This document shows, in pieces, positions 7,803-57,889 of a stretch of 64,000 nucleotides of DNA (within the stretch, counting starts at the first letter, position 1; the number at the start of each line of letters is the position of its first letter). Source of the stretch: Streptomyces sp. 7-21 (lineage in GTDB: Bacteria > Actinomycetota > Actinomycetes > Streptomycetales > Streptomycetaceae). The DNA lies in assembly GCF_016741785.1 (NCBI RefSeq), contig NZ_JAERRL010000003.1, forward strand, positions 124,001 through 188,000, read 5' to 3'. Both the position numbers and the translations under genes were made by a program. Under the pieces are notes generated by a model. It saw only the letters and a program-made list of their open reading frames with translations, made no database searches and had not been told where the DNA came from.

Positions 7803-8873
7803 TCAGCCCGGCGCCGTCACCACGCCCGCGACGTTCGGCACCGGCACCGGGCGGGACCCCTCGGCCAGCGACACCGCCCCGGCCGTGCCGGTCAGCGAGG
7901 CCGCCACGGCCGGCCGCACCGGCACCAGCGGCGGGGCACCGTCCTCCACCGTGGCGCGGAACCCCTCGATCACCCGGGCCGTGCCCTCCGCGTGCCGCTC
8001 GACCGGCTCCCCGGCGAAGATGAACGGCGGCGGCACCCGCTCCTCCTCGCGGACCCGCCCGTCCGGCGTCGCCCACGCCTCCGCCCGCAGCCGCACCGAC
8101 CAGGCCCGCTCGCCGGGGGCGCGCAGCGACTCGGCCAGCGCCCGGGTGCCGCGCACCGACAGCCAGCTCCAGTGGCTGTCCGGCTCGCCCTGCAGAAAGC
8201 CGTGGCGGGTCAGGGCCAGCGCCCCGCTGGAGAGCCGCACGGCCATCACGACCGCCGAGCGCGGATCGGCCTCGTCCACGACGTGCGCCGCCACCGTCAC
8301 CGGCCAGGCGCCGGTCAGCGCCAGCACGGGCGAGAGGGTGTGCGTGCAGTAGGCCGTGGGCGCGATCCGGCTGCGCCAGTGGTCCGGGCCGCCCAGCAGC
8401 TCGGCGACGCCGTCGGGCGGCAGGCCGTGCAGGTAGTCGGCCTCGACGAGGCTGATCCGGCCCAGCTCACCGGCCTCCACGGCCTGGCGCAGCAGCAGCG
8501 TGTGCGGGTGGCACACGTAGTTCTCGGCGAACGAGTAGCTGGCGGCGGACCGTTCGGCCGCCGCGATGAGCGCGCGCCCCTCCTCCTCGGTGACGCAGGC
8601 GGCGCACTCGGACAGCACGTGGACGCCCCGGTCGAGAAACGCGATGGCCAGCGGGGCGTGGGCGTCGAAGTCGTTGGCCAGGATCACGCCGTCGAGATCC
8701 TGGTGCAGCAGCTCCTCCCAGCGGGAGCACAGCACCGCCCCCGGCAGCCGCTCCCGCGCGGACCGCCGTCGCTCCGCGTCCGTGTCGCAGGCCGCCACCA
8801 CCTCGATCCCCGCCCGCAGGCACAGCTCCGCCAGATACAGGCCCCTGACCAGCCCGACTACTCCGACACGCAT
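7803..8873 (-). CDS. Gfo/Idh/MocA-family oxidoreductase lacking the EKP lysine
   Basis: 356 residues. The N-terminal Rossmann start MRVGVVGLVRGLYLAELCL and the following VVAACDTDAERR are typical NAD(P)-sugar dehydrogenase features. The catalytic EKP motif after GVHVL is replaced by SECAACVTEEEG, so the usual Lys is Cys. The C-terminal half keeps a HWRSRIAPTAYCTHTLSP segment like the substrate domain of the family. Without the Lys it may be catalytically altered or act on a different substrate class. Three in-frame starts exist (GTG 8891, ATG 8882, ATG 8873); the last has GAGGAAG at 9 nt. Divergent from the flavoenzyme at 9179. Confidence 0.75.
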   Translation of the reverse strand: MRVGVVGLVRGLYLAELCLRAGIEVVAACDTDAERRRSARERLPGAVLCSRWEELLHQDLDGVILANDFDAHAPLAIAFLDRGVHVLSECAACVTEEEGRALIAAAERSAASYSFAENYVCHPHTLLLRQAVEAGELGRISLVEADYLHGLPPDGVAELLGGPDHWRSRIAPTAYCTHTLSPVLALTGAWPVTVAAHVVDEADPRSAVVMAVRLSSGALALTRHGFLQGEPDSHWSWLSVRGTRALAESLRAPGERAWSVRLRAEAWATPDGRVREEERVPPPFIFAGEPVERHAEGTARVIEGFRATVEDGAPPLVPVRPAVAASLTGTAGAVSLAEGSRPVPVPNVAGVVTAPG

Positions 8874-9178
8874 GCCCCGCATCTTCCTCACTGCTGCTCA
8901 CCGGGACCACCCGTTTTCCGCGGGGCACCTCGCGGGCAGCGCGGCGGGGGGCATCGCGCGCGGTCCGGCACGCGGCCGGGACAGCCCGGCCGCCACGGCC
9001 GCTTCTCTTTCCCCTCGCCGGCCCGTCACACGCGCTGCCCGCGTGCGCGGTTGCCCGGCCCGCTGGCCAGTACGCCCGCCATTCCGTATGCATCCCTGAT
9101 GGCGAAGAAAATCCGCTCCGCTCCGCTTTAGGCTCGGCGCGACGCCGATGCGGCCGCGAGCGCCCTGGGGAGGCAACC

Positions 9179-10666
9179 GTGAGAATCGAGCCGGGAGATC
9201 CCCGGTACAGCACGCTGGTGCGGGGCTACAACCAGCGGTTCCGGGCGGCGCCCGGGGCCGTGCACCTGGTCCGCACCACGCAGGAGGCCGTCGCGGCGGT
9301 GGAGGAGGCGCTGCGCGGCGGCAAACGGCTGTCCGTGCGCAGCGGCGGGCACTGCTACGCGGACCTCGTCTACCACCGCGACACCGAACTCATCGTGGAC
9401 CTGTCGCTGATGACCAACGTCACCTACGACCCGCGCCGCCGGGCGTTCATGGCGGAGGCCGGGGCGCGGCTGACGGACGTGTACGCCACGCTGCACCGCG
9501 GCTGGGGCGTGCTGCTGCCGGGCGGGGTGTGCCCGCACATCGGGCTGGGCGGTCACCTCACTGGCGGCGGATACGGCTACCACAGCCGCCGGTACGGGGT
9601 GGCGGCCGATCACGTCGAGGCGGTCGAGGTCGTCGTCGCCGACCAGGGCGACCGGGCGCGCGCGGTGATCGCCTCGCGCGGTTCGCACGGCACGCTCCAC
9701 GACCTGTGGTGGGCGGTGTGCGGCGGTGGCGGCGGCACGTTCGGCATCGTGACCCGGTTCTGGCTCCGCGCGCCGTGGGCCGAGGGCGGCGACCCGCTGC
9801 GGCAGCTGCCGCCCGCGCCGCAGGAGGTCCTCATCAGCATGTCGCAGCGGTCCTGGGAGGGGCTGTCGCAGGCGGAGTTCACCAGGCTGCTGCGCAACTT
9901 CGGCCGCTGGTGTGAACGGCACGTGGCGGCCGGCCCGCCGCAGGACGCCCTGTCGGCGACGCTGGTCACTCCGCACCGCTCCTCCGGCGCCCTCCGGCTG
10001 ATCGCGGTGATCGACGCGGGCGTGCCGGGCGCGCGGGCGGCGCTGGACCGGCTCGCCGCCGAGGTCGGCGCGGGCACGGCCCTGGTGACCGCGCCCCACC
10101 GGCGGCTGCCGTGGGCGCAGGCGGAGCGGCTGCTGTCGGCCACGGACCCGGAGACGATGGTGACCGCGGCGAAACGGGTGGCGGTCAAGTCCGGCTACCA
10201 CCGGGCGGCGTTCACCGAGGAGCAGGGCGCGGCGGCGTACCGGCACCTGACGCGGGAGGACTACGGCAACCCGCTGGCGCGGGTGCTGTACTTCGCCGCG
10301 GGCTCGCGGCTCAACGCGGTGCCGCGCGACACCATCGCCTATGTGCACCGCGATTCGTCTTTCGCCGCCCAGTACGAGGTGTTCTGGACCCAGCCGCAGG
10401 AGGACTCGCTGCACCTGAACTGGCTGCGCGGCCTGTACGGCGAGGTGTACGCGGCCACCGGCGGCTATCCCGTGCCGGACGGGCGGACCGGCGGCTGCTA
10501 CATCAACTCGCCCGACCCGGACATCCTCGATCCGCGGTACAACGCCTCAAAAGTGCCCTGGCAGGCGTTCTACTGGCGGGAGAACTACCCCCGCCTCCAG
10601 CGTGCCAAGGCCCGCTGGGACCCGGACGACGTCTTCCGCCACGCCCTGTCGGTGCGCCTGCCCTGA
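9179..10666 (+). CDS. FAD-linked oxidase, berberine-bridge type with bicovalent flavin motifs
   Basis: 495 residues. The FAD domain (about 30-200) contains RSGGHCYAD, whose His is the 8-alpha-linkage position, and GGVCPHIGLGGHLTGGGYG, whose Cys is the 6-S-cysteinyl position. Both together predict bicovalent FAD. The C-terminal BBE segment (YINSPDPDI ... YWRENYPRLQRAKARWDP) is present. Family members oxidise sugars, alcohols or natural-product intermediates. No signal peptide is seen. The GTG start has GGGGAGG at 5 nt. Single gene, ended by a strong hairpin; adjacent to the SMP-30-like gene (convergent). Its role may be in a biosynthetic pathway, since such enzymes often are, but no partner is evident. 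Confidence 0.88.
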   Translation: MRIEPGDPRYSTLVRGYNQRFRAAPGAVHLVRTTQEAVAAVEEALRGGKRLSVRSGGHCYADLVYHRDTELIVDLSLMTNVTYDPRRRAFMAEAGARLTDVYATLHRGWGVLLPGGVCPHIGLGGHLTGGGYGYHSRRYGVAADHVEAVEVVVADQGDRARAVIASRGSHGTLHDLWWAVCGGGGGTFGIVTRFWLRAPWAEGGDPLRQLPPAPQEVLISMSQRSWEGLSQAEFTRLLRNFGRWCERHVAAGPPQDALSATLVTPHRSSGALRLIAVIDAGVPGARAALDRLAAEVGAGTALVTAPHRRLPWAQAERLLSATDPETMVTAAKRVAVKSGYHRAAFTEEQGAAAYRHLTREDYGNPLARVLYFAAGSRLNAVPRDTIAYVHRDSSFAAQYEVFWTQPQEDSLHLNWLRGLYGEVYAATGGYPVPDGRTGGCYINSPDPDILDPRYNASKVPWQAFYWRENYPRLQRAKARWDPDDVFRHALSVRLP

Positions 10667-10783: not shown

Positions 10784-11869
10784 TCAGGACAGCAGCGGCA
10801 GCCCCTGGATGCCGGGGAGGGTCATGCGCACCACCACGGCCGCGCCCGGGTCGTCCAGGTCGTAGCCCAGGTGGGCCGTGATGAACAGCTGGCCCAGGTC
10901 GGGCCCGCCGAAGGCGAAGTTGGTCAGGCACGGGGTGCGGCTGTCCAGCGAGCCCAGGTCGCGGCCGTACCGGTCGCGCACCCGCACCAGGCCGGTGCCG
11001 AAGTGCGCGATGTACAGCCGTCCCTCGCTGTCCACGGCGAGCCCGTCGGGCTGCGCCTCGGCGATGGGCGACCAGGTGTTGGGCTGCGAGGGCAGCCGGG
11101 TGAACACCGTGCCGCGGCCCACCTGCCCCGGGGCCGTCAGCGGGTAGCGCAGCACGCGGTTGCGGCGGCCCTCGGAGATGTACAGGACGTCGTTGTCCGG
11201 GCTGAGGGCCACCCCGTTGGGGAAGTCGATGACGCCCTCGTCGACGAGCACGCGCGGCCGCTCGCCGGGGCCCTCGACGTAGAACACCCGGCCGGGCTCC
11301 CGCTCGGTGAACGAGCCCGGGTCGGTGAAGTACACGCCGCCGGTGCGGGGGTCGATGGCCAGGTCGTTCAGGCAGCGCAGCGGCCGCCCCTGGTGGTCCT
11401 CGGTGAGGGTGTGCAGGACGGTGCCGTCGGGGTCGAGCCAGACGACGGCGGCGGGCGGGCCCATCTGCACGACGACGTGGGTGCCGTCGGGCAGCACGCG
11501 GTGGCCGTTGGGGGAGACCAGCTCGCCCGAAGTCCACTCGCGCCAGGTGCCGTCCTGCGCGATCTCGAAGATCTCGCTGCCCTGCGTGTTGGACATGAAC
11601 ATCCGGCCTTCGGCGTCGAAGACCAGGCCCTCGCAGCCGTGTTCGCCGAGCCGCGCGATCTCGGTGACCTCGGGGACCGGCAGCCAGGGTCCCTCGCCGG
11701 GCGGCGTCCCGCCGGCCTGCGCCGGGGCGGCGGCGGCCGCCTGGCCGGTGCCGAGCGCGGAGACGCCGAGGGCGGCGAGGCCCGCGCCGCCGCCGGTGAG
11801 CAGCGCCCGGCGGCTGGGGCGGAGGGATCGTGCGGACCGTGCGGACCGTTCGGAAGCTGACGCGCGCAT
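10784..11869 (-). CDS. Tat-exported SMP-30/gluconolactonase-like protein
   Basis: 361 residues. The N-terminal SRRALLTGGGAGLAALG followed by an Ala-rich stretch is a twin-arginine signal, cut near residue 50. The mature part is a six-bladed propeller of the SMP-30/gluconolaconase/LRE type: the hallmark NDLAIDPRTGGVYFTDPG carries the Ca-binding Asn/Asp residues, and FPNGVALSPDNDVLYISE is the next blade. Members hydrolyse lactones or phosphotriesters. Lies 81 nt downstream of the DAHP synthase gene on the same strand, so it might be co-transcribed with the six-gene operon, but a secreted lactonase is not obviously part of it. Confidence 0.82.
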   Translation of the reverse strand: MRASASERSARSARSLRPSRRALLTGGGAGLAALGVSALGTGQAAAAAPAQAGGTPPGEGPWLPVPEVTEIARLGEHGCEGLVFDAEGRMFMSNTQGSEIFEIAQDGTWREWTSGELVSPNGHRVLPDGTHVVVQMGPPAAVVWLDPDGTVLHTLTEDHQGRPLRCLNDLAIDPRTGGVYFTDPGSFTEREPGRVFYVEGPGERPRVLVDEGVIDFPNGVALSPDNDVLYISEGRRNRVLRYPLTAPGQVGRGTVFTRLPSQPNTWSPIAEAQPDGLAVDSEGRLYIAHFGTGLVRVRDRYGRDLGSLDSRTPCLTNFAFGGPDLGQLFITAHLGYDLDDPGAAVVVRMTLPGIQGLPLLS

Positions 11870-11950: not shown

Positions 11951-13174
11951 TCAGGACGACCGGCGCGTGACGAGGGAGGCGGCGAGCCGGACGACCCGCT
12001 CGGACTGGGCGGGGCTCAGCCGCGGGTCGCAGGCCGACTCGTAGCGCGGCAGCGGGGCCTCGTCGTCGAGGTCTTCGCCGTGCGCGACGCACTCGGTCAC
12101 GTCGTCGGGCGCGGTCTCCAGGTGCAGGCCGCCCGGGGGCAGGCCGTGGGCGCCGAGCGCCGCGAAGAACGCCTCGGTCTCGGCGAGCACGTCGTCGAGC
12201 ACGCGCGTCTTCTGCCCCGCCGCGTTGGTCTTGGTGTTGCCGTGCATCGGGTCGATCAGCCAGATAGCCCGGGAGGCCAGCGGGCCGAGCGCCGACAGCA
12301 GCGGCGGCAGCCGGTGCGGCAGGCTGGCGGCGCCCATCCGCACGATGAGCGCGAGCCTGCCGGGCTGGCCGGCCGGGTTGAGCCGCTCGATGAGCGAGGC
12401 GACCTCGGACGGCTCGGTGCGCGGGCCGATCTTGACGCCCACCGGGTTGCTGATGGCGGCGGCGTACTCGACGTGCGCGTGGTCGAGCTGCCGGGTCCGC
12501 TCGCCGATCCACAGGAACGGCGCGGAGGAGCCGTAGCGGCCGCCCCGCTCGTCGGCGCGGGTCAGGGCGTGCTCGTACTCCAGCAGCAGCGCCTCGTGGC
12601 TGGTGTAGGTGGGCGCGAGCGCGGCGCGCACGGCCTGGCCGCTGGCGTCACCGGGGCGCGCCGGGTAGTGGGTGGCGAGGGTGTCCAGCGCCTGGCGCGC
12701 GTGGTCGTAGGCGGCGAGCAGCCGCTGCGGGTCGGGCTGCCGGGCGGCCTCGGTGGCCTCGGCGCTGTTGACCGCGTCGCCCCGGTAGACGGGCAGCACG
12801 GTTCCGTCGGGCAGCGTCTCGTGGGAGTTGGAGCGGGGCTTGGCGTACTGGCCGGCCAGGCGGCCGATGCGCACCACCGGCAGCTTGGTCAGCGACTCGA
12901 ACAGGTCGGCGAGCCGGTGGAGTTCGTTGGCCTTGGCGCGCACCCGCTCCGGCGAGCTGTCCGCGAACAGCTCGGCGCAGTCACCGGTCTGGATGACGAA
13001 GGCCGAACCGCGGGCGACGAAGGCGAGTTCCTCGGTGAGGGCGGCCGGCACGGCGGGCGACACCAGCGGCGGGCGTTCGGTCAGCTCACCGAGCACGGCG
13101 TCGAGTTCGTCCCAGCGGGTCCAGTCGGGCTGCTGTACGGCCCTGGTGGCGATCAGCAGTCGGGTGGTTGACAT
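11951..13174 (-). CDS. Class II DAHP synthase (3-deoxy-7-phosphoheptulonate synthase)
   Basis: 407 residues; joins phosphoenolpyruvate and erythrose-4-phosphate, the first shikimate step. Class II signatures are all present: IQTGDCAELF with the metal Cys, RIGRLAGQYAKPRS, WIGERTRQLDHAHVEY, and DPMHGNTKTNAAGQKTR. The length matches the short forms found in natural-product clusters (PhzC-like), which lack the N-terminal extension of feedback-regulated housekeeping enzymes. GAGAGGA lies 6 nt before the ATG. Last gene of a six-gene minus-strand operon (54 nt after the adenylating enzyme). Its presence implies that the pathway consumes chorismate or another shikimate-derived aromatic in quantity. 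Confidence 0.93.
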   Translation of the reverse strand: MSTTRLLIATRAVQQPDWTRWDELDAVLGELTERPPLVSPAVPAALTEELAFVARGSAFVIQTGDCAELFADSSPERVRAKANELHRLADLFESLTKLPVVRIGRLAGQYAKPRSNSHETLPDGTVLPVYRGDAVNSAEATEAARQPDPQRLLAAYDHARQALDTLATHYPARPGDASGQAVRAALAPTYTSHEALLLEYEHALTRADERGGRYGSSAPFLWIGERTRQLDHAHVEYAAAISNPVGVKIGPRTEPSEVASLIERLNPAGQPGRLALIVRMGAASLPHRLPPLLSALGPLASRAIWLIDPMHGNTKTNAAGQKTRVLDDVLAETEAFFAALGAHGLPPGGLHLETAPDDVTECVAHGEDLDDEAPLPRYESACDPRLSPAQSERVVRLAASLVTRRSS

Positions 13175-13228
13175 GCGTCCTCTCTCGTTCCGGCACTGGT
13201 CGGGTGTCGGTTTCCGGTCGCCTGGGTG

Positions 13229-14320
13229 TCAGGCGTGCGCCGCGTGCGTCTGGTCCGCCAGGCCGCGCAGGGCGGGCAGGCGGACCTTGCCCGTGTCCGT
13301 GCGGGGGATGCGGGGGACGAAACGCACGGCCCTGGGGCCGGGAACCCCGGGGAGTGCGGCGGTGAGGGACTCGCGGACGAGCCGCGCCCCGTCGGGCGGC
13401 CCGCCCGGCCCGGCCGGGTCGGCAGGTGCTGAAACGTACAACTCGTAGTGCTCGCCGCGTACGTCATCGTTGACCGGCAAGCAGGCGGCGTCCGCTCCGG
13501 GCAGCGCGCCGCGCACGGCGTTCTCGACGTGGTCCAGCCAGACCCGCCGCCCGTTGACCTTCACCAGGCGCGAGGCGCGGCCGAGGTGGTCGAAGGTGCG
13601 CGGGCCCCGCCGGCGGATCAGGTCGGTGAGCCGCCACGAGTGCGGTGCCTGGCTCATGCCGGGCCCGCGTGCGATGCGCGGGCTGGCGACGTGCAGGTAG
13701 TCGGCGCCGGCGTCGTCGCCGCGGTCGGGCACGAGGTACACGTCCGGCAGCAGCCGCCAGGGCGTGGTGCCGGGCGCGCCTGCGGGCTCGATGGGGCGGT
13801 GCGCGACGGCACCGGTCTCCGTGGCGCCGAGCAGGGACTCGGCGCGGAAGCCCCGGTCGTGCAGGCCGGCGACGACCTCCCGGGCCGCGTCAGTCGGCGC
13901 GGCCGAGGAGTGGAGCGCCACCACGCCGGGCAGGTCGCGCAGCGCGGGCACCAGGTGACGCAGCAGCGGCCACGAGGACGGCAGGCACACCAGCAGCGTG
14001 CGGGCGCCCTCGCGCAGCGGCGGCACGTCGGTGGGGTCCCGGTGCCAGGCCTGGTGGACCTCGGCGCCGCACAGCCGCGGCAGGATCTCGCCGAAGAGGT
14101 GCCCGTACATGTGGTGCACCGGGGCGAAGTTGATGATGTAGTCCACCGGCCCGATGAGCGTGTCCGCCACGAGCGCGGCCTCGTAGTCCAGCAGGTCGCG
14201 GGGGCGCCGCCAGGTGACGGGCTCGCCGGTGTGTCCGGAGGTGGCGAACGCGGCCTCGTCCGCTGCCTCCCGTGCCCCCGTGGTGGCCGCCGCCGGGGCG
14301 GCCGGAGCGGTGGCGGTCAC
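13229..14320 (-). CDS. Short adenylate-forming enzyme lacking the usual N-terminal third
   Basis: 363 residues. The first recognisable element, FATSGHTGEPVTW at about residue 26, is the A3 (P-loop) motif that normally occurs well over 100 residues into an acyl-CoA ligase. LLGATETGAV (A5), WRLTDLI (A7, TGD-like), HLGRASRLVKVNGRRV (A8) and PRTDTGKVRL (A10, catalytic Lys) follow in order. So the N-terminal subdomain before A3 is absent but the core and C-terminal lid are kept. The GTG start overlaps the ACP stop (GTGA). It probably activates an acid and loads it on the ACP encoded immediately upstream, or works with the PaaK-like enzyme; both are inference. The upstream DNA in this frame is ACP coding sequence, so the shortness is not a start-site error. 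Confidence 0.75.
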   Translation of the reverse strand: MTATAPAAPAAATTGAREAADEAAFATSGHTGEPVTWRRPRDLLDYEAALVADTLIGPVDYIINFAPVHHMYGHLFGEILPRLCGAEVHQAWHRDPTDVPPLREGARTLLVCLPSSWPLLRHLVPALRDLPGVVALHSSAAPTDAAREVVAGLHDRGFRAESLLGATETGAVAHRPIEPAGAPGTTPWRLLPDVYLVPDRGDDAGADYLHVASPRIARGPGMSQAPHSWRLTDLIRRRGPRTFDHLGRASRLVKVNGRRVWLDHVENAVRGALPGADAACLPVNDDVRGEHYELYVSAPADPAGPGGPPDGARLVRESLTAALPGVPGPRAVRFVPRIPRTDTGKVRLPALRGLADQTHAAHA

Positions 14321-14625
14321 CGGCCGCCACCCTGGAGGACGGCGCCGTCCTCCAGGCGCTCGCGGACGAACTGCGTCATGCGGTCGATGGTGGAGAACCA
14401 GTGGCGGACATCGTCGGCGACGAAGTCGACCTCGATGTTGAAACGGTTCTCCACGGCGGTGATGCACTCCATGGCGGTGAGGCTGTCGTAGCGCTCGCCG
14501 AGGGCCTGGTTCAGCTCGGCGTCGTCCGTCACGGACGCCAGCGCGTCGCCGAGCGGACCGGCGAGCGCCTCGCGTATGCCCTCGCGGATCTGGGTCTCTT
14601 CGGGCACCGAGGTGGGGGCGGTCAT
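14317..14625 (-). CDS. Acyl carrier protein
   Basis: 102 residues, acidic. The phosphopantetheine attachment motif is YDSLTAME with Ser48 (DSL core). Helices II/III (AVENRFNIEVDFVADDV and TIDRMTQFV) follow as in type II ACPs. Start ATG overlaps the tautomerase stop (ATGA), and an AAGGAG ribosome binding site lies inside the tautomerase C-terminus. It is the only carrier protein of the operon, so the two adenylating enzymes and any substrate-modifying enzyme presumably act on it. The Sfp-type transferase at 1.8-2.6 kb could modify it. Confidence 0.88.
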   Translation of the reverse strand: MTAPTSVPEETQIREGIREALAGPLGDALASVTDDAELNQALGERYDSLTAMECITAVENRFNIEVDFVADDVRHWFSTIDRMTQFVRERLEDGAVLQGGGR

Positions 14626-15119
14626 GCTGCTGTCTCCTTCGTGTGGGTATCCGTGCGGGAATTCGTGCCGGGGGCCGCGTGGGGATCCGTGCCAGGGGTG
14701 CCGAGGGTGTCGACGCGGCGCAGCTTGCCGTGGTCCGAGATGTAGACGTGGCCGCGCGCCGTCGGCTGGAGATCGAGGTAGAAGAACGCCGTCGCCGGTC
14801 CGACGCCGAGGGCCGCCGCGATCTCCCCGGCGAGCTGGTCGCGGAAGACCTCGTCGCGGTCGACACCGATCTGGCAGACGACGGTCGCGTGGTGAATGGT
14901 TTCGCCATCGCTGGTCTCGCCGTCGCCGCTGGCCGGGGTGCGGATGGCCTCCACGGGCATGGCGCCCGAGTAGAGGGTGCCGGGCTCCTCCGTCACGAAG
15001 CGGACCACGGCGTGGCTGGGGGTGACGCCCTGGCCGGTGAGCCAGCGGGTCAGGCGCACAGCGATGGCGCGCCGCCTTCTGGGGGGCAGTTCCGGGCTGG
15101 TGATGGTGATGGTGGGCAC
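14622..15119 (-). CDS. Tautomerase-superfamily protein (Pro1 type)
   Basis: 165 residues starting GTG-CCC, so Met removal exposes Pro1, the catalytic base of the 4-oxalocrotonate tautomerase superfamily. The N-terminal strand PTITITSPELPPRRRRAIAV, followed by a basic helix, fits this fold, and the length fits the fused (two beta-alpha-beta) forms such as cis-CaaD or MSAD rather than the ~62-residue monomers. A second strand IHHATVVCQIGVDRDEVF would be the second half. The last ~30 residues are Thr/Gly-rich. It may isomerise or hydrate an enoyl/enol intermediate of the operon's product. It sits 14 nt after the toroid gene's stop and overlaps the ACP start. Confidence 0.7.
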   Translation of the reverse strand: MPTITITSPELPPRRRRAIAVRLTRWLTGQGVTPSHAVVRFVTEEPGTLYSGAMPVEAIRTPASGDGETSDGETIHHATVVCQIGVDRDEVFRDQLAGEIAAALGVGPATAFFYLDLQPTARGHVYISDHGKLRRVDTLGTPGTDPHAAPGTNSRTDTHTKETAA

Positions 15120-15133
15120 GGTGGTCGCCTGTC

Positions 15134-16882
15134 TTACGAGAGTGTCAGGGCGGGCAGGGTGCCGGGCTGGCCCTTGGCGCGCCGCAGCAGCAGCGTGCCG
15201 AGGCAGTCGGCGAGCCGGTCGGAGCCCTCGGGGGGCGCGAGCGGCGTCCAGGCGGTGCCGCCGGGGGTCACCACGCGGTCGCAGAAGGCCCGCAGGTGCG
15301 CGATGTCCACGGGGATCTGGTAGCGGTCGGCGGTGAGCACCGCCTCGTAGGTGGTCAGCAGGTCGGGGATGCGGCGTCCCTCGTTGGCGTAGCCGCCGCT
15401 GCTGACGCGGTGCCGGTCGAGCGCCTCGCGGACGGCACCGGGCTCGGGCCGCCCGGCGAGCTCCCGGGCGCGCAGCGCCTGGAGGGTGGCGCGCAGCGTG
15501 GGCGCGGCGCCGGGCACGTTGCCCGAGCCCTCCTCGGTGCGGCAGGCGTCGAGGAACCCGAGCAGCGCCTCGGTGTCCAGGGCGTCCCGGTGGGACGGCC
15601 CGAGCAGCCGCCGCACCTCGATGGCGGAGACGGTCGAGACGACGTCGGAGCCGCGTCCCTCCCAGTAGCCGAAGCCGCCGTCGGGGTTCTGCAGGTCGCG
15701 CAGCCAGTCGGCGACGCGCTTGCGGCTGGCCTGGTCGCGGCGGAACGCCCCGGCCTCCAGCGCCCACAGGGTGCAGCGGACCTCGCTGCCGCGGGCGGGC
15801 ATGTACATCACGCCGCCTTCGTTCGGCAGCAGGCAGCCCTCCAGCCAGCGCCGCAGCGGCTCGCCGTCGTCGGCCGCGGCCTCGGGGGAGCCGGCCAGCA
15901 GCGCGGCGGAGGTGGCGAGCGCGTCGGCGGCCAGCGCGGGCTCGCGGTAGGTGTAGCCGCCGCCGGCGCAGGCGAGTTCGGTCATCCGGCGGGTGACGTC
16001 CTCGGCGTAGGCGTCGGCCGGCTTGCCCATGGCGACGAGCGAGCCGACGGCACAGAACGACGCCCACACGTCCTCGACGCCGTAACCGTCCCACCGAACG
16101 AAAGCGCCGCCCGGTCCGCGCAGTCGCGCGATCCAGGCGGCGCATGCCTCCGGGTCGGCGGGGCCGGTTCCCAGGGCGGCCAGGGCGGCGGTGGTTCGAT
16201 ACGTCGCCCACATGCATGGCACGTCGGCGGCGGGCGAGAACCGGAAGCCGCCCTCGGCGCTCTGCTGGTCGCGCATCCAGCTGATGAGGCGTCCGGTGTC
16301 CCAGGGCGCGGGCGCGTCCCCGGTGCGGGTCAGGGCCCGCCAGGCCATGACGCCGTAGAAGCAGGCACGGACGTCGGAGACGCCGTCCTCGGCGTACTCG
16401 GGGGTCCAGCCCAGGCCGCCGTCCGGCGCCTGGAGCGCGCCGAGCCAGGCCAGCAGCCGCTCCCGGTCGGGCACGTCCTCGCCGCAGGTCTCCAGCGTGG
16501 TGCGCGTAGAAAAGAACGTCGCCCAGGCGTCGGGAAGCTGGCCGGGCATCATCGCGAATGCACTGCCGGACCAGGTGGAGCGCAGCCAGTCGCGGGTGCG
16601 GTCCAGGCCGGCGGCCTTCTGGTCGCTGACGCCGAGGCGGGCGAGGTCGGCCAGGCCCTGCGTGCAGTAGTAGGTGGCCCAGGCGTCGGAGGCCATGCCG
16701 CGGCTCCAGGCGTAGCCGCCGTCGGCGTTGCGCCGGCTGGCCAGGTAGCGGGCGGTGGCCTGCGGCTGGACCACGCCGTCGGGGCGGCGCAGCCAGGCGA
16801 GGGTCCGCAGCGCGGCGTAGGTGCACCACAGGTCGGGCTGACCGGTGGCGACGCCGCGTGCCTCGGTGGTGGTCAGGGTCAC
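15134..16882 (-). CDS. Alpha/alpha-toroid protein (prenyltransferase/squalene-oxidase repeats)
   Basis: 582 residues made of about ten repeats of roughly 50 residues. Most contain the GG(F/Y/L) turn of terpene cyclases and prenyltransferase beta subunits, for example DGGYAWSRGMASDAWATYY, DGGLGWTPEYAEDGVSD, EGGFRFSPAADVPCMWATY and DGGFGYWEGRGSDVVSTVS. I do not see the DxDD motif of class II cyclases nor a clear Zn triad of protein prenyltransferases, so the catalytic type is open: cyclase-like enzyme, acyl-chain-modifying enzyme or scaffold. The GTG start overlaps the PaaK-like gene's stop (GTGA) with GGAGG 4 nt upstream. No membrane segment or signal peptide. Central gene of the six-gene operon. 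Confidence 0.75.
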   Translation of the reverse strand: MTLTTTEARGVATGQPDLWCTYAALRTLAWLRRPDGVVQPQATARYLASRRNADGGYAWSRGMASDAWATYYCTQGLADLARLGVSDQKAAGLDRTRDWLRSTWSGSAFAMMPGQLPDAWATFFSTRTTLETCGEDVPDRERLLAWLGALQAPDGGLGWTPEYAEDGVSDVRACFYGVMAWRALTRTGDAPAPWDTGRLISWMRDQQSAEGGFRFSPAADVPCMWATYRTTAALAALGTGPADPEACAAWIARLRGPGGAFVRWDGYGVEDVWASFCAVGSLVAMGKPADAYAEDVTRRMTELACAGGGYTYREPALAADALATSAALLAGSPEAAADDGEPLRRWLEGCLLPNEGGVMYMPARGSEVRCTLWALEAGAFRRDQASRKRVADWLRDLQNPDGGFGYWEGRGSDVVSTVSAIEVRRLLGPSHRDALDTEALLGFLDACRTEEGSGNVPGAAPTLRATLQALRARELAGRPEPGAVREALDRHRVSSGGYANEGRRIPDLLTTYEAVLTADRYQIPVDIAHLRAFCDRVVTPGGTAWTPLAPPEGSDRLADCLGTLLLRRAKGQPGTLPALTLS

Positions 16883-18189
16883 GGTGCCTCCACGACACGG
16901 AGATTGGTGCGCTTCCAGCTCTTCTGCGAGGCGCCGCTCTTGGTGTTGGCGGGCAGGGCGTTGACGAAGCGGACATCGCCCCAGCTCAGGCGGAGCGAGT
17001 CGAGCGACGCGGCCCGTACGGCATCGGCGAGTTCGGCCTCGGCGGCGCGGTCCCCGTCGCTGTCGCGCTCCAGCAGCAGGCGCAGCGGCTGGCCGTCGGG
17101 GTCGACCTCCATCAGGTAGCCGGTCGCGCTGGTGGCCCCGTAGACGATCTCCTCGACCTCGCGGACGGTGATCTTCTCGCCGCCGATGAGCAGGGCGTCG
17201 CTGCTGCGGCCGTGCACGGTGACGGTGGGCGCGGGGCTGCCGCAGGGGCAGTCGCTGGCGACCGTCACCTCGTCGCCGGTGTCCAGGCGCAGCAGCGGCC
17301 GGGCGTGCTGGTTGAGCGGCGTGACGACCAGCCGGCCGCGTACCCCGGCCGTCAGCGGCGTCACGCCGCTGTCGGTGGCCAGTTCGAAGTAGTTGGTGGC
17401 CAGCAGCAGGTGCTGGCGGCCCTCGCGGCAGGAGGTGGCGAGGGTGCCGGTCTCGGTGGAGCCGTAACTGGCGTCGTAGGCGGCGGCGTTCCACCAGGAG
17501 CCGAGCCGGGAGCGGAACGGCGCGGTGTTGACCTCGCCGAGCAGCATGATCTTCTCGACCGACTCGGCGTGCCAGTCCAGCTCGCCGCGGCGCTTGAGCA
17601 GCCGCGTCAGCTGCTGGGCGACGCCGGGGGCGATGAACAGGGTGGTGGGGCGCAGCGTGCGCCAGATCTGCGTGAGCCGGTCCCAGTCGCAGATGCCGGT
17701 GGCGAACGGGTACGCCCGGGTGTGCACGTGGCCCAGGTACTCGCAGGCGTGGACGATCAGATCGCCGACGGGCACCACGTCCGAGGGCATCATGATCAGG
17801 ACGCGCTCGTTCTCGCCCAGCAGCGTCCGCCACGCCTCGGCGACGGAAACGGCATTGCGCACGGAATCTTCCGCGAGGCGGGGAGTCGGCGTGGCCCTGC
17901 CCGTGGTGCCGGTGGTTTCGTAGTACTTGGCGGCTTCGCCGGGGGTAACGACGCAGTAGTCCAGCGGACGCTGCTTCAGGTCGTCCTTGAGCGTCACCGG
18001 GAGTTTCTCGAAGGCCTCCATCGAGAAGGCGCCGAGGCCCGCGTAGGCAGGGGCGGATGAGGCCCTTTCCCAGACCTTTTCAAGCTTCCGCTTGTGAAAG
18101 GAATGCGGGGGATTCTCCTGTCGATATCTTGTGACCTCTTCGCGTGCGTCGAGGAGGTTCTGGAGCTGGGCTGGTGTCGTGATCAGCAC
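16879..18189 (-). CDS. PaaK-like adenylate-forming ligase
   Basis: 436 residues in the phenylacetate-CoA-ligase subgroup: early FHKRKLEKVWERAS..YAGL and FEKLPVTLKDDL segments, P-loop ETTGTTGRATPTPR, YGSTETGTLA (A5), LRLDTGDEV (A7) and LIGGEKITVREVEE (A8-like). It would activate an aromatic or other carboxylic acid as acyl-AMP, for CoA or for the ACP three genes downstream. GTG 18189 is preferred to GTG 18201 because GGAG lies 6 nt before it. First gene of the operon PaaK-like, toroid, tautomerase, ACP, short adenylating enzyme, DAHP synthase; the first five genes overlap or nearly touch. Confidence 0.85.
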   Translation of the reverse strand: MLITTPAQLQNLLDAREEVTRYRQENPPHSFHKRKLEKVWERASSAPAYAGLGAFSMEAFEKLPVTLKDDLKQRPLDYCVVTPGEAAKYYETTGTTGRATPTPRLAEDSVRNAVSVAEAWRTLLGENERVLIMMPSDVVPVGDLIVHACEYLGHVHTRAYPFATGICDWDRLTQIWRTLRPTTLFIAPGVAQQLTRLLKRRGELDWHAESVEKIMLLGEVNTAPFRSRLGSWWNAAAYDASYGSTETGTLATSCREGRQHLLLATNYFELATDSGVTPLTAGVRGRLVVTPLNQHARPLLRLDTGDEVTVASDCPCGSPAPTVTVHGRSSDALLIGGEKITVREVEEIVYGATSATGYLMEVDPDGQPLRLLLERDSDGDRAAEAELADAVRAASLDSLRLSWGDVRFVNALPANTKSGASQKSWKRTNLRVVEAP

Positions 18190-18474: not shown

Positions 18475-18957
18475 TCACGTATAAGCGAGGAGCCGGCCGC
18501 AGACGATGACGCCGGTCCAGGAAAGCGTGGAGACCACGCCCGCCAGTCTGGCCGTGACGGGCGCGGGGGCGTTCAGATCCCAGCGGTCCACCGACCGGTA
18601 GACGCCAAGGTGGAAGACCGCGATGTTGACGCCGGCCAGCAGGAGCAGCCCCAGCTTCCAGGGCGCGGCCCCGCTGTTGCCCACAGCCATGGCGCCCGAG
18701 ACGAACATCACCGCGCCGGAGAGGACGGCGATGAGGAAGCCCACGCGCGACAGCGGCAGCAGGTGGCGCGCCGCCGAGGTGACCGGCAGCAGCCGCTGGC
18801 CGACGCCCAGCAGCCGCAGGTCGAACGCGAGGGCGGGACCGACGAGCAGGGCGATACCGAGGATGTGCACGCTCTCCAGAGAGGAGTACACCCAGGGCGT
18901 GGTGCGGACAGCCTCGCCGAGCGTCGTGTGCTCAAGCCACTCGAAGAAGGAGTCCAC
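18475..18957 (-). CDS. Four-helix membrane protein, unknown function
   Basis: 160 residues with about four membrane segments: SLESVHILGIALLVGPALAF, VGFLIAVLSGAVMFVSGAMAV, KLGLLLLAGVNIAVFHLG and LAGVVSTLSWTGVIVCGRLL. The first ~20 residues (SFFEWLEHTTLGEAVR) are amphipathic. It resembles uncharacterised DUF6644-type proteins, often beside exported proteins like its upstream neighbour. The GTG start has GAGGG at 6 nt, overlapping the preceding stop region (2-nt gap), so the two are an operon. His residues in helices could bind metal or haem, but no defined motif is seen. Confidence 0.7.
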   Translation of the reverse strand: MDSFFEWLEHTTLGEAVRTTPWVYSSLESVHILGIALLVGPALAFDLRLLGVGQRLLPVTSAARHLLPLSRVGFLIAVLSGAVMFVSGAMAVGNSGAAPWKLGLLLLAGVNIAVFHLGVYRSVDRWDLNAPAPVTARLAGVVSTLSWTGVIVCGRLLAYT

Positions 18958-18959: not shown

Positions 18960-19736
18960 CTACCCTCGGTTGCTTCGGCGGACGATGTAGAAGCCGCCTC
19001 CGGCCACGACCACGACGCCCGCGGCGACCAGGACCCAGATGACGGCGGACGACGAGCCGTCATCCGCCTCAGCCGCACTGTCGCTGGCGCTGTCGCTGGA
19101 GCTCTCACTGGAGCTGCCGCCGGACGCGGTGGCGTCGTCTTCCCCGTCTCCGCTGTCCCCGCTGCCCTCGCCGCCGGCCGCGTCACCGGAGCCGGCCTCC
19201 GCGCCGCTGCCGTCCGCGGGCGCCTCGGGCGGATCGGCCAGCGGCACGGAACGCTGCCGCACCACCTGGCCGGACTCCAGCACGATCAGCTCGGGCCGCA
19301 GATGCCCGTTGTCGTCCCGGTCGATGTAGCCGACGGCCTCGATCCAGTCGCCCGGCTCGACCTGGCCGTCCATGCCCCAGGCCGACAGCCGCTCGATCGG
19401 GGCGAGGTCCATCGTGATGGTCTCGGCCTCACCGGCGTACGCCTGGGTGGCGTCCAGCACGTCCTGGCCGCCGATCTCCTCCAGTTCGGGCGGGATGTCG
19501 AGTTCGGTCCAGTCGTCCGGCACGGTGACCGGGCGCTCGATCTCGATGGTCACCTGGGGGTGGGGGTTGCCCCACCTGACGTCCGTGGTCGTACCGGAGA
19601 CGTAGTAGGCGGCTGTCGTGTCGTACTCCTCCCAGCCGTGGTGCGCGGCGGCGGGGACGGCCGCGAGGAGGGTGAGCGGGGCAGCCAGCAGGGCGGACAG
19701 GGTCATCGACCGGGCGGTGAACCTCATGGATGTCAT
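18960..19736 (-). CDS. Exported, C-terminally membrane-anchored protein (DUF6152-like)
   Basis: 258 residues. Signal peptide in the first ~35 residues ending VPAAAHHGWEEYD; the HHGW start of the mature protein is typical of DUF6152 proteins. The domain (about 35-165) is followed by a Ser/Gly/Asp/Glu-rich linker of some 60 residues and a C-terminal membrane helix (SSAVIWVLVAAGVVVVAGGG) with a basic tail. It is therefore probably tethered to the outer face of the membrane. Function unknown; the His pair suggests metal binding. The ATG at 19736 is a choice among 19748 (TTG), 19736 and 19727. First gene of the pair with the four-helix protein, divergent from the LysR gene. Confidence 0.7.
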   Translation of the reverse strand: MTSMRFTARSMTLSALLAAPLTLLAAVPAAAHHGWEEYDTTAAYYVSGTTTDVRWGNPHPQVTIEIERPVTVPDDWTELDIPPELEEIGGQDVLDATQAYAGEAETITMDLAPIERLSAWGMDGQVEPGDWIEAVGYIDRDDNGHLRPELIVLESGQVVRQRSVPLADPPEAPADGSGAEAGSGDAAGGEGSGDSGDGEDDATASGGSSSESSSDSASDSAAEADDGSSSAVIWVLVAAGVVVVAGGGFYIVRRSNRG

Positions 19737-19803
19737 GCTGTCCGACAACTCGCCCAGCAGGTCTATAGTTTCATGCTGGGGTCATAACTGATGCAATGGC
19801 CGT

Positions 19804-20691
19804 ATGAATCTCGACCAGCTCAGGTACATCGTCCTGCTCGCCGAGGAGCTGCACTTCGCACGGGCCGCGACCAAGCTCGGGCTCCAGCCTCCGCGGCTGA
19901 GCCAGCAGGTGCGCAAGCTGGAAGATGAGCTGGGCGTCCAACTCTTCGAGCGCACGACCAGGGAGGTGCAGATCACCTCGGCCGGGAAGAACTTCGTGGC
20001 CGAGGCGGCGCAGGCGCTCCACCACGCGGAGCGCGCCAAGCGGGTGGCACGGCAGACGGGACGCGGCGAGGTGGGACAGCTGTCCCTGGGGTTCGTCGGG
20101 TCCGCCGCGCACGAGCTGCTGCCGCGCCTGCTGCGACGCTTCCGTCGCAACTACCCCAACGTCAAACTCCAGTTGAGGGAGCTCGCCTCAACCGAGCAGA
20201 TCGATGAGCTGCTCGCTGGCAGCCTCGACGTGGGCATCCTGCACGCGCATGAGAAGGGCGTCGACCAGGACGAGGTGGTCACGCAGGAGATCTCGCGGGA
20301 CCGGCTCGTCGCCGCGCTCTCCAGGCGCCATCCCCTGGCCCACCGCGATCCGTTACCGATAGCCAGCCTGGCGGAGGAGTCCTTCGTGCTGTTCCCCCGC
20401 CACCTGGGCCCTTCCCTTCACGACAACATCACCCGCCTCACCCGCGCCGCCGGGTTCGAGCCCCAGGTCTCGCAGGAGGCGGTCCACATGCACACCATCA
20501 TCGGGCTGGTCGCCGCCGACATCGGGGTGTCGATCGTGCCGGGGTCGATGGCCACGCTCAGACGCACCGACGTGGTCTTCCGGACGCTCACCCCGCAGAC
20601 CCGCTCGATCTCGCTCCACCTGGCCTGGCGGCGGGGCGACACCAGTCCCGTCGTGAGAAACTTCCGGGCGCTCAGCGCACCTCGTCTGTAA
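19804..20691 (+). CDS. LysR-family transcriptional regulator
   Basis: 295 residues. The N-terminal winged helix-turn-helix is plain (MNLDQLRYIVLLAEELHFARAATKLG and LSQQVRKLEDELGVQLFERTTR), followed by the usual periplasmic-binding-like effector domain. It is divergent, with only 67 nt between starts, from the exported protein/membrane protein pair, so it probably controls those genes and itself. Its 3' end overlaps the end of the next LysR gene (convergent) by 20 bp. Confidence 0.93.
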   Translation: MNLDQLRYIVLLAEELHFARAATKLGLQPPRLSQQVRKLEDELGVQLFERTTREVQITSAGKNFVAEAAQALHHAERAKRVARQTGRGEVGQLSLGFVGSAAHELLPRLLRRFRRNYPNVKLQLRELASTEQIDELLAGSLDVGILHAHEKGVDQDEVVTQEISRDRLVAALSRRHPLAHRDPLPIASLAEESFVLFPRHLGPSLHDNITRLTRAAGFEPQVSQEAVHMHTIIGLVAADIGVSIVPGSMATLRRTDVVFRTLTPQTRSISLHLAWRRGDTSPVVRNFRALSAPRL

Positions 20692-21595
20692 CGTCCGTCG
20701 TCACCTTCTCCGTAAGCTCCTTCTCCGCGTGCCGCAGGAAGCGCCGCAGTAACGGGCTCCCACGGTCGCCGCGCCAGGCGATGCCGAGCGGAACGGTCGG
20801 CACCGGCGCGGCGAACCGCCGCACGGCGACTCCTGGCACGCGGAGCCGGCTTGCCCTCCCCGCCACGACCAGCGTCACGCCGTGCCCCTGCGCGACGGCG
20901 TGCAGCATGCCCTCCTCGTCCGGCTCCCACCGCGACACCCGGGGCCGCTCCCCCTCCCCGAACACCTGGTCCAGCATCGCGTCCCACATGCCCGGCCCGT
21001 GCTCCCTCGGCCACCACACCAGCGGCTCCGCCGCCAGGTCCGCGCCCCGCACGCTGCGCCGCCGCGCCAGCGGATGCCCGGCCGGCACCGCCGCCACCAC
21101 CGCCTCCCGGGCGATCACCCGGCACGTCAGGCCGCCGTCCAGGCCGATCGGCGGGCGCACGAACGCCACGTCCAGCTGGCCCGCGCGCAGCATGTTCTCG
21201 TGCAGCGCCGTATAGCCGCTCGACAGCCGCACATCCACCGCCGGGAACGCCTGGCGGAAGCCGTCCACCAGCCGCTCGGTCAGCTCCCACGCCGCCGAGC
21301 GCGTCAGCCCCACCCGCAGCAGCCCCGCCTCTCCCGCGCCGTGCGAGCGCACCAGCTCCTCGGCGGCGCGCGCGGTGTCCAGCACCTCGCGCGCCAGCGG
21401 CAGCAGCGCCTCGCCGGCCGGCGTCAGCGCCACCCCGCGCCGGTCGCGGACGAACAGCGCGGCCCCCAGGTGCCGCTCGAACCGCTTGATCTGCTGGCTC
21501 AGGCCCGGCTGCGCGATCCCGAGCCGCCGCGCCGCCCGCCCGAAGTGCAACTCCTCCGCGACGGCGACGAAATACCGCAACAGCCGAAGCTCCAC
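20672..21595 (-). CDS. LysR-family transcriptional regulator of the adjacent exporter
   Basis: 307 residues from a GTG. HTH region VELRLLRYFVAVAEELHFGRAARRLG with LSQQIKRFERHLGAALFVRDRR, then a ligand-binding domain with an extra C-terminal TEKVTTDVTDEV tail. Divergent from the MFS exporter gene across about 100 nt that hold a near-perfect inverted repeat (21624-21646). This layout predicts direct control of the exporter, probably with an exported compound as inducer. Sequence between 21596 and 21655 stays open in frame, so an earlier start cannot be fully excluded. Confidence 0.93.
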   Translation of the reverse strand: MELRLLRYFVAVAEELHFGRAARRLGIAQPGLSQQIKRFERHLGAALFVRDRRGVALTPAGEALLPLAREVLDTARAAEELVRSHGAGEAGLLRVGLTRSAAWELTERLVDGFRQAFPAVDVRLSSGYTALHENMLRAGQLDVAFVRPPIGLDGGLTCRVIAREAVVAAVPAGHPLARRRSVRGADLAAEPLVWWPREHGPGMWDAMLDQVFGEGERPRVSRWEPDEEGMLHAVAQGHGVTLVVAGRASRLRVPGVAVRRFAAPVPTVPLGIAWRGDRGSPLLRRFLRHAEKELTEKVTTDVTDEVR

Positions 21596-21623
21596 GGCCG
21601 GCAGTCTAGGGCGGCCGGCCACC

Positions 21624-21646
21624 GGTGATAAGCGCCGCTTCTCACC
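21624..21646. promoter_or_regulatory. Probable LysR operator between regulator and exporter
   Basis: GGTGATAAGC (21624-21633) and GCTTCTCACC (21637-21646) are inverted repeats separated by GCC, matching at 9 of 10 positions. The site lies 29 nt upstream of the LysR start and 54 nt upstream of the MFS start, where a LysR recognition site is expected. The internal T-N(11)-A spacing rule for this family is compatible. Confidence 0.7.
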
Positions 21647-21699
21647 TGACAACAAACCGGACTTGGACGTTCCGGCTGCCGGCGTGGATCAATGCTGGC

Positions 21700-23172
21700 G
21701 TGCCCACACTCCAGGACACCCACGCCACCGGCGACCGCGGCACCGCGCCGGCCCCGCGCCGTGCCGCCGCGGTCGCCCTGACCGCGATCCTGCTCGCGGC
21801 CTTCATCGGGCAGTTCGACGCCAGCGTGATCGTGCTGGCCGTGCCCGCGCTGCGGGACGAGCTGGGCGCCACGCACGGGCAGGCGCAGTTCGTCCTCGCC
21901 GGGTACACCGCGGCCTACGCCGCCGGGCTCGTCACCGGCGGCCGGCTGGGCGACCTGCTCGGCCGCCGGCGCGTCTTCCAGCTGGGCGTCACCGCGTTCA
22001 CGCTGCTGTCGCTCTCCTGCGCGCTGTCGCCCGGGCCGGGCGCCCTGATCGCCGCCCGCACCGGGCAGGGCCTGGCCGCCGCGCTGATGCTGCCGCAGGT
22101 GCTCGCCATCGTGCACGCCACTTTCCCGCCCCGCGCACGCGCCCGCGCCGTCGGCCTGTACGGCGCCACCATCGGCATGGCCTGGATCGCGGGCCCGCTG
22201 GCCGGCGGCGCCCTGCTGTCGTGGAACCCCTTCGACCTGGGGTGGCGCGCCCTGTTCCTGATCAACCTGCCGGTCGGGCTGGTGGTGGCCCTGGGCGCCC
22301 GCTACGCCGTCACCGAGAGCCACGGCGACCGGCAGCGGCTCGATCTCGCCGGCGCCGTGCTGCTGGCCGGCGCCCTGTACGGCCTGCTGCTGCCCGCCAG
22401 CGCGGCCGAGGGCGGCGACTGGCCGTCGTGGGCGCCGCTGGCGGCGGCGGGCGGCGCCGTGCTGCTGGTGGCGTTCTGGCTGCTGCAACGCCGCCTGGAG
22501 GCACGCGAGCTGGCGCCGCTGCTGCCGCCGCGGCTGCTGCGGCAGCGGCGGGTGGCGCGCGGCCTGGTCACCGTGCTGGCCTTCTACGGCGGCAACATGG
22601 GCTTCTTCACCCTCGTCGCCTACCACGTGCAGGACGGCCTGGGCCGCACCCCGCTCGTCGCCGGGCTCGTCTTCTCCCCGCTGGCCGCCGGGTTCGCGCT
22701 GGGCTCGGTCGGCAGCAAGCGGCCCCACGCCCGCTACGGCCACCGGCTGCTGGTCGCCGGCGCGCTGCTGATGGCGGTCAGCCTGGCGGCCGTCCTGGCC
22801 GTGGTGGCGCTGGCGCCGGAGGAGAGCCAGCTGTGGTGGCTGCCGCTGCCGCTGGCGCTGTCCGGCCTCGGCGAGGGCGTCGTCGCCGCGCCGCTCATCG
22901 CGACCGTGCTGGGCGGCGTGCCCGCCCGGGACAGCGGCGCCGCCAGCGGGGTGCTGCTGACGGCGACGCAGGTCGCGCACGCCGGCTCCGTGACCGTCAT
23001 CGGCGGCCTGTTCGTCACCGTCCTCGGCGAAACGCACGGGGGCGCCTCGGAGTTCGCGTCCTACGCGCGCGCCACCAGTACCGGGTGCGCCGTCGTGCTC
23101 GTGCTCGCGCTGCTGACCGCGCTCGCGGCCCGGCGGCTCGGCCCCGAGCCCCGTTCCGCCGGGGGCGGCTGA
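21700..23172 (+). CDS. MFS drug-efflux transporter (DHA2-like)
   Basis: 490 residues with about 14 membrane segments. First helix ALTAILLAAFIGQFDASVIVLAVPAL; the loop 2-3 signature GGRLGDLLGRRRVF and the AAALMLPQVLAIV helix are typical of proton-linked drug exporters. GTG 21700 is chosen; an upstream GTG at 21625 would run through the operator. Control by the divergent LysR regulator is likely. It could export one of the products made nearby, but the nearest PKS is separated by the GH43 gene. Confidence 0.9.
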   Translation: MPTLQDTHATGDRGTAPAPRRAAAVALTAILLAAFIGQFDASVIVLAVPALRDELGATHGQAQFVLAGYTAAYAAGLVTGGRLGDLLGRRRVFQLGVTAFTLLSLSCALSPGPGALIAARTGQGLAAALMLPQVLAIVHATFPPRARARAVGLYGATIGMAWIAGPLAGGALLSWNPFDLGWRALFLINLPVGLVVALGARYAVTESHGDRQRLDLAGAVLLAGALYGLLLPASAAEGGDWPSWAPLAAAGGAVLLVAFWLLQRRLEARELAPLLPPRLLRQRRVARGLVTVLAFYGGNMGFFTLVAYHVQDGLGRTPLVAGLVFSPLAAGFALGSVGSKRPHARYGHRLLVAGALLMAVSLAAVLAVVALAPEESQLWWLPLPLALSGLGEGVVAAPLIATVLGGVPARDSGAASGVLLTATQVAHAGSVTVIGGLFVTVLGETHGGASEFASYARATSTGCAVVLVLALLTALAARRLGPEPRSAGGG

Positions 23173-24259: not shown

Positions 24260-24285
24260 GTGTGGCTCCTTCACTGGACGCCTTC

Positions 24286-24301
24286 GTTCGGAATACCGAA
24301 C
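24286..24301. promoter_or_regulatory. Perfect palindrome between arabinanase and PKS genes
   Basis: GTTCGGAATACCGAAC is a 6-4-6 perfect inverted repeat centred about 35 nt upstream of the arabinanase GTG. A second, weaker one (TTCGT and ACGAA around 24306-24323) follows. Such sites are typical operators of LacI or ROK sugar regulators. The rest of the 24260-24502 region holds the start of the PKS transcript but no other motif that I can defend. Confidence 0.6.
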
Positions 24302-24502
24302 ACTATTCGTCATCGTGAACGAAACCTAGAAGTGAGCCATGACCACGTCAAGACTGCGCGCGGCCCCCTTCCGCTCACTCGTCTGACTAACCCCCCGAAC
24401 GGGTCAATCGGAGGCGCCCGCGGGCTGCACCGCGCGGCATGCGGGCAGCCTCAGCGCGGACAGCCCGGAAGTACGCACCGTGCATGGGGAGTTGTGAACG
24501 CA

Positions 24503-57733: not shown

Positions 57734-57808
57734 GGTCCTGTGGAGCAGTTTGGAGTGCTCGCCACCCTGTCAAGGTGGAGGCCGCGGGTTCAAATCCCGT
57801 CAGGACCG
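57734..57808 (+). tRNA. tRNA-Asp (anticodon GTC)
   Basis: 75 nt. Acceptor stem GGTCCTG/CAGGACC, D arm, anticodon stem CCACC/GGTGG around loop CTGTCAA giving anticodon GTC, T arm CGGG-TTCAAAT-CCCG. The CCA end is not encoded. The sequence matches the usual Streptomyces tRNA-Asp. Four nt separate it from tRNA-Phe. Confidence 0.97.
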
Positions 57809-57812
57809 CTCC

Positions 57813-57889
57813 GGCTGGGTAGCTCAGTTGGTACGAGCGTCCGCCTGAAAAGCGGAAGGTCGCCGGTTCGACCCCGGCCCCAGCCACCA
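57813..57889 (+). tRNA. tRNA-Phe (anticodon GAA)
   Basis: 77 nt with encoded CCA. Acceptor GGCTGGG/CCCAGCC, anticodon stem TCCGC/GCGGA with loop CTGAAAA, anticodon GAA; T arm GCCGG-TTCGACC-CCGGC. Co-transcribed with the preceding tRNA-Asp. A TAGGCT-like -10 box lies near 57627, about 100 nt upstream of tRNA-Asp. Confidence 0.97.

Follow-up and report, generated by a model that had tools for sequence, protein, structure and literature searches.

What might an operon be doing that combines two adenylating enzymes (A1 and A2) and a single acyl carrier protein (ACP) with a tautomerase-superfamily protein, an alpha/alpha-toroid protein and a DAHP synthase? This question is raised by a locus in the window, the 64,000-nucleotide stretch of Streptomyces sp. 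7-21 DNA analysed here. A preliminary description of the window had placed six such genes at 11951-18189 and considered them to be one unit. The six-gene set was confirmed: all genes lie on the minus strand at these coordinates and are joined by overlaps or short gaps (Table 1). The overlaps of A1 with the toroid gene, of the tautomerase gene with the ACP gene and of the ACP gene with A2 are 4 bp each. Gaps of 14 bp and 54 bp separate toroid from tautomerase and A2 from DAHP synthase. That the genes belong together is borne out by the related loci, since the order A1-toroid-tautomerase-ACP-A2 and the tight spacing recur in every one for which enough sequence was available.

Organisation of the locus

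The unit probably comprises seven genes rather than six, because an SMP-30/SGL-type gene follows the DAHP synthase gene after 81 bp on the same strand and is found at the corresponding position in L002 and L003, the two closest relatives. The region upstream of A1, with the DUF6644 and DUF6152 genes, two LysR-type genes and an MFS gene, is likewise common to the window and these relatives. Between the DUF6644 gene and A1 a GC-rich inverted repeat with a T run after it was read from the sequence at about 18442-18415, which suggests that A1 and the following genes have a separate transcript. The repeat was not listed by a scan for consensus-type terminators with a stricter tail rule. The unit is flanked by genes for a Gfo/Idh oxidoreductase (7803-8891, minus strand) and a berberine-bridge-type FAD oxidase (9179-10666, plus strand); neither is shared with L002 or L003.

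Table 1. Genes of the unit and of the region upstream of it (positions in the window)
Product	Position	Strand	Basis
A1, PaaK-like AMP ligase, 436 aa, GTG start	16879..18189	-	Motifs and solved relatives
Toroid, two alpha/alpha-barrel protein, 582 aa	15134..16882	-	Pfam Prenyltrans, 115 bits; AlphaFold2 model
Tautomerase-superfamily protein, 165 aa, Pro at position 2	14622..15119	-	MPT start; model fold
Acyl carrier protein (ACP), 102 aa, Ser48 in DSL	14317..14625	-	Pfam PP-binding
A2, short AMP ligase, 363 aa, start just before P-loop motif	13229..14320	-	Ligase motifs
Class II DAHP synthase, 407 aa, accessory	11951..13174	-	Pfam DAHP_synth_2 (PF01474), 419 bits
SMP-30/SGL-type protein, TAT-like N-terminus, probable last member	10784..11869	-	Pfam SGL, 117 bits; same place in L002 and L003
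DUF6644 membrane protein, type I accessory	18475..18957	-	Pfam; kept in L002 and L003
DUF6152 exported protein, type I accessory	18960..19748	-	Pfam; kept in L002 and L003
LysR-type regulator	19804..20691	+	Copies 83% (L002) and 68% (L003) identical
Second LysR-type regulator	20672..21655	-	Copies 74% (L002) and 63% (L003) identical
MFS transporter, likely exporter	21625..23172	+	Copies 68% (L002) and 55% (L003) identical

A conserved five-gene core

Five genes, A1, toroid, tautomerase, ACP and A2, form a core, and 33 distinct loci, one of them truncated, carry it with the same gene order. Thus the association of toroid, tautomerase and ACP, which the preliminary description had proposed to look for by a genome-neighbourhood search, is a recurrent one with a fixed gene order. 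The 33 loci comprise the window, 27 loci from a toroid search of genome contigs, the Rhizobium rhizogenes plasmids pAtK84c and pC5.7c, and three Streptomyces loci from whole genomes; L037 and L039, to go by the lengths of their contigs, repeat L003 and L006 and were not counted as distinct. The hosts belong to two phyla and include Streptomyces, five other actinobacterial genera, Pseudomonas, a Hyphomicrobiales MAG and the Rhizobium plasmids. Among the loci with enough sequence, overlaps at the A1/toroid and ACP/A2 junctions were most often 4 bp. L012 and L028 showed an apparent frameshift inside the block, and the sequence of L023 stops within the toroid gene.

The blocks on the Rhizobium plasmids (L035, 6586-19319 on pAtK84c; L036, 13637-26499 on pC5.7c) possess the same five genes, with tautomerases starting MPT, DSL carrier proteins and toroids of about 40% identity. 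Genes for an amidase, an ATP-grasp protein, an SDR, a third AMP ligase and transposases lie near the blocks. pAtK84c belongs to the biocontrol strain K84. A link between the plasmid block and agrocin 434 was considered, and a literature look-up gave no support for it.

Of 296 Streptomyces genomes six, including that of the window, had the toroid, which corresponds to about 2% of Streptomyces species; all 395 other genomes drawn across the phylum lacked it. On account of this distribution the block is taken to be an accessory element of patchy occurrence. Within the block, alignments gave a mean column identity of 64% for A1 and 60% for the toroid, with 46-49% for the tautomerase, ACP and A2. 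The high conservation of A1 and toroid hints that these two might act together on a constant substrate.

The toroid resembles prenyltransferases and terpene cyclases but lacks their motifs

In the AlphaFold2 model (pLDDT 92.4) the toroid protein consists of two alpha/alpha-toroid domains. Residues 9-293 form a barrel that superposes on the beta subunit of protein prenyltransferases such as RabGGTase and FTase (Z 28.5 over 266 residues), and further toroid repeats follow beyond residue 293. The top Foldseek match was SHC, with a modest TM of 0.49; over sequence and fold together the matches were FTase beta, SHC and drimenyl diphosphate synthase. With the latter two the protein shares the two-toroid fold and repeats of the GGFG type, but the catalytic DxDD is replaced. 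At the position of this motif in the drimenyl synthase D413, V415 and S416 are invariant, V415 and S416 standing in place of Asp residues. The preliminary description had noted no obvious DxDD in the window protein, and the motif proved not to be conserved anywhere in the family: it was absent from 24 of 25 toroids, and the lone DGDD, in L002, occupies a non-conserved C-terminal spot. The comparison with prenyltransferase beta subunits is limited in a similar way, for the zinc positions are changed, a second barrel follows and no alpha subunit was seen. Inner helices 5 and 6 of barrel 1 start at residues 224 and 272, and mapping by helix order rather than by measured coordinates puts the invariant residues C223, W225 and W273 where prenyltransferases have their zinc ligands (Asp and Cys on inner helix 5, His on inner helix 6). 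The candidates class II terpene cyclase and protein prenyltransferase were therefore rejected, the former for want of DxDD, the latter for want of the zinc triad. Fold and Pfam family might still be thought to indicate a terpene cyclase or prenyltransferase of an unusual kind, with a prenylated aromatic as its substrate. This is very improbable given the loss of both motifs, and no prenyl diphosphate synthase or UbiA-type gene was found among the conserved neighbours examined.

What the toroids have kept is of a different kind. About 100 residues are invariant across the two phyla, and W19, W68, W120, R172, W225, W273, R127, R229, E355, E367 and D413 were retained in nearly all 28 sequences, those from Rhizobium included. 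The inner helices of barrel 1 mostly begin with DxW (W19, W68, W120 and W273; W225 follows a Cys), and the fourth begins with D170-x-R172. In our reading of this inferred geometry the barrel would present an aromatic mouth with one arginine, suited to a flat acyl group. The invariant residues argue for catalysis on a constant substrate. The protein might instead be a non-catalytic binding scaffold joining A1 and acyl-ACP, which would agree with the disappearance of the cyclase and zinc motifs and with the 4-bp overlaps that couple the toroid gene to A1 in most loci. However, the residues that are invariant down to 40% identity include so many charged and buried-type ones (R, E, D, W and C) that the needs of a scaffold are exceeded, and we regard this explanation as unlikely.

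The tautomerase, the ligases and the carrier protein

The tautomerase had no match in Pfam or NCBIfam and was assigned to its superfamily from structure alone. The model (pLDDT 86) has the beta-alpha-beta fold and matches cis-CaaD, Cg10062 and fused 4-OT; the start MPT is invariant in 27 aligned sequences, giving Pro1 after removal of Met. Thus fold and N-terminal proline are those of the superfamily. In a weak alignment with cis-CaaD (E 0.09) R88 corresponds to Arg73, but His28 and Arg70 are seemingly not kept; Glu114 falls outside the aligned part. Apart from the proline, the catalytic residues thus do not clearly agree with the cis-CaaD set.

Both ligases have intact motifs of ANL adenylating enzymes (P-loop, YGSTETG/GATETG and acidic ATP-binding), namely TTGTTG, YGSTETG and LDTGD in A1 and TSGHTG, GATETG and TGK in A2. 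The closest solved relatives of A1 are PaaK-like ligases, and its NCBIfam matches (DVU1553, BagE/FevW and FlxY) all fall below the cut-off. For A2 the best-scoring NCBIfam model was TIGR02372, the short form of 4-coumarate-CoA ligase, which has a similar compact length. All 22 members of the A2 family matched it below the cut-off, the window protein with 84.9 against 334.7 bits. Another difference from this model is the overlap of the A2 and ACP genes; because of it the acceptor of A2 is probably ACP rather than CoA. The A2 homologue of L013 (12466-13491) seemingly lacks the C-terminal TGK lysine motif kept by the others and may be decayed or miscalled. The ACP of the window scored 23.4 bits with Pfam PP-binding (cut-off 20.8), and DSL is invariant in the alignment.

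Aromatic precursor supply and the likely substrate

A class I or class II DAHP synthase gene was found near the core in 25 of the 33 loci. The window enzyme exceeds the cut-off of PF01474 by far (419 against 27 bits) and stays below that of the stricter NCBIfam equivalog (400 against 615 bits). The suggestion of the preliminary description that this enzyme boosts the supply of aromatic precursors is supported by its frequency and by the EPSP and chorismate synthase genes of L003, but the enzyme is accessory and stands outside the core.

The same description had an aromatic acid adenylated and loaded on the single ACP. Here the neighbouring genes are informative. A gene for an MIO-type aromatic ammonia-lyase or tyrosine aminomutase occurred in the fetched flank of 21 of the 33 loci; as the genomes examined carry only few MIO genes, we estimate that such linkage would arise by chance with a probability below about 1% per locus. 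The linked enzymes fall into three lineages. One is BagA-like TAL, another has an RHL motif, and the third consists of tyrosine 2,3-aminomutases above the cut-off. Because of this linkage and the match of all A2 proteins to the 4-coumarate ligase model, we consider 4-coumarate the most likely acid. The proposal of a loaded aromatic acid thus gains from the TAL or aminomutase genes and from the relationship of A2 to 4-coumarate ligases, but the argument from a lyase does not extend to the genome of the window. A genome-wide search revealed a single MIO gene there, which is hutH (628 bits, cut-off 539), and no TAL. This is the main weakness of the coumarate reading, and the strain would therefore have to take coumarate from elsewhere or use a different acid. 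As for other genomes, L006 had one strong MIO match, and no such match was found in L002 or L021.

The module might accordingly serve a different aromatic acid from the shikimate pathway, such as a hydroxybenzoate, with TAL or TAM supplying a second building block in some clusters. Such an arrangement would explain why the window genome and several others have no linked TAL or no TAL at all, and why DAHP synthase genes are more widespread among the loci than MIO genes. It does not account for the recruitment of three unrelated MIO lineages beside the same block, nor for the resemblance of A2 to 4-coumarate ligases in all members, and we consider it a serious but rather unlikely alternative. 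The loaded unit might also be beta-tyrosine from a tyrosine 2,3-aminomutase, in which case the TAL-like enzymes would be aminomutases as well. The enzymes of L007 (819 bits), L005 (775 bits) and L026 are indeed well over the tyrosine aminomutase cut-off of 501 bits. Most of the other linked MIO enzymes, however, gave their best scores with models for TAL or for lyases in general, and they possess the HL selectivity pair, which we take as a mark of TAL; moreover, the best match of A2 is to 4-coumarate ligases and not to enzymes adenylating amino acids. Beta-tyrosine is thus a quite improbable substrate.

Cluster types around the core

A matrix of neighbouring genes revealed that the core sits in at least five cluster types. 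In the toroid tree types I and III were single clades at 100/100; the other types clustered without forming single clades. Type I (the window, L002 and L003) has a class II DAHP synthase, the SGL protein and DUF6152/DUF6644, to which L003 adds TAL, SDR, EPSP synthase and chorismate synthase directly after the block. Type II is characterised by an AsnB-like amidotransferase, an amidase and a class II DAHP synthase, often with an aldo-keto reductase and MarR. In type III a class I DAHP synthase is found together with a LuxC-like dehydrogenase, a LuxE-like ligase (both our own reading of proteins that Pfam assigns to Aldedh and AMP-binding), an SDR, usually TAL, and a secreted protein of the AOC/dirigent-barrel type. 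Types IV and V share a third AMP ligase, an SDR and an amidase; type IV also has an ATP-grasp protein similar to dapdiamide synthase.

The secreted allene-oxide-cyclase/dirigent-barrel protein (17198-17680 in L014, with equivalents in L015-L020, L022 and L041) is kept beside the block with TAL, the LuxC/LuxE-like pair and SDR, a set that recalls the plant route from monolignols to lignans.

A possible function of the core

Evidence at the level of sequence covers the gene set and its conservation, together with folds and motifs, including the missing cyclase and zinc motifs. From these we propose, with a probability of roughly 0.55, that the core is a 4-coumaroyl-ACP processing module feeding the five or more cluster types. 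DAHP synthase, to judge from its family, would raise the supply of aromatic precursors, and TAL, where present, would convert tyrosine to 4-coumarate. One of the ligases, most likely A2, would adenylate 4-coumarate and load it onto the phosphopantetheine arm that Ser48 of ACP carries. The aryl-acyl group may then be held by the Trp-rich, Arg-containing barrel of the toroid. From their co-conservation we infer that toroid and Pro1 tautomerase act on the carrier-bound group, which could undergo a proton shift, an addition or a change of the cyclisation type. Chemistries that would fit the toroid are a proton shift through a phenol/quinone-methide system, a conjugate addition, or the coupling of two acyl units. 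A1 could activate a second such acid or, like some PaaK-like relatives, form an ester or amide and so release the product. The variable partners would finish the product by reduction (SDR or aldo-keto reductase), by amide formation (AsnB-like or ATP-grasp enzymes, with amidase) or through the LuxC/LuxE-like pair and the secreted barrel protein, presumably giving aldehydes, amides or reduced products, and the MFS transporter may export them.

More tentatively, and at somewhat less than even odds, the toroid may belong to the prenyltransferase/squalene-cyclase superfamily as a non-terpenoid member and carry out, with the Pro1 tautomerase, a novel reaction on the hydroxycinnamoyl group bound to the carrier; the block would then define a class of phenylpropanoid biosynthetic clusters, so far unrecognised, that do without PKS or NRPS. 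That a toroid without the motifs of either enzyme class is conserved next to an ACP and two ligases for aryl acids speaks for an enzyme activity not yet described. Five soluble proteins would suffice to test the idea. The block also provides a handle for genome mining, and once a single product is characterised, a family of clusters would be explained.

Relationship to known systems

Searches of the open-access literature found no description of a cluster with toroid, tautomerase and ACP, in keeping with the initial impression that the gene combination matches no described pathway; a product of the block may nevertheless have been described elsewhere. The nearest parallels are partial. In the bagremycin/ferroverdin (bag/fev) clusters of Streptomyces the genes for DAHP synthase (fevY), a PaaK-like synthetase (fevW/bagE) and TAL (fevV/bagA) are adjacent in one cluster (PMC6692506), and one TAL lineage at the core loci (TAL1) is BagA-like. 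However, in the text examined no toroid, tautomerase or ACP was seen for these clusters, and A1 lies far below the BagE/FevW cut-off (88.4 against 800 bits). Flexirubin initiation by FlxA and FlxY also employs TAL and an AMP ligase; FlxY is a biochemically tested 4-coumarate ligase in a carrier-based pathway (PMC3992019). A1 is similar to FlxY, below the cut-off as noted, but the flexirubin unit is extended by ketosynthases, whereas the core block has no PKS-type extension gene.

Other genes in the window

A single-module PKS of 2652 aa (KS, AT, DH, C-methyltransferase, ER, KR and ACP) followed by a thioesterase is encoded on the plus strand at 24260-32952. We take the domain order to be like that of fungal highly reducing iterative PKSs. 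Neither of the closest relatives, L002 and L003, has a counterpart of the PKS gene (24260-32218), which was treated as separate from the unit. Two tandem tRNA genes are located on the plus strand at 57734-57886.
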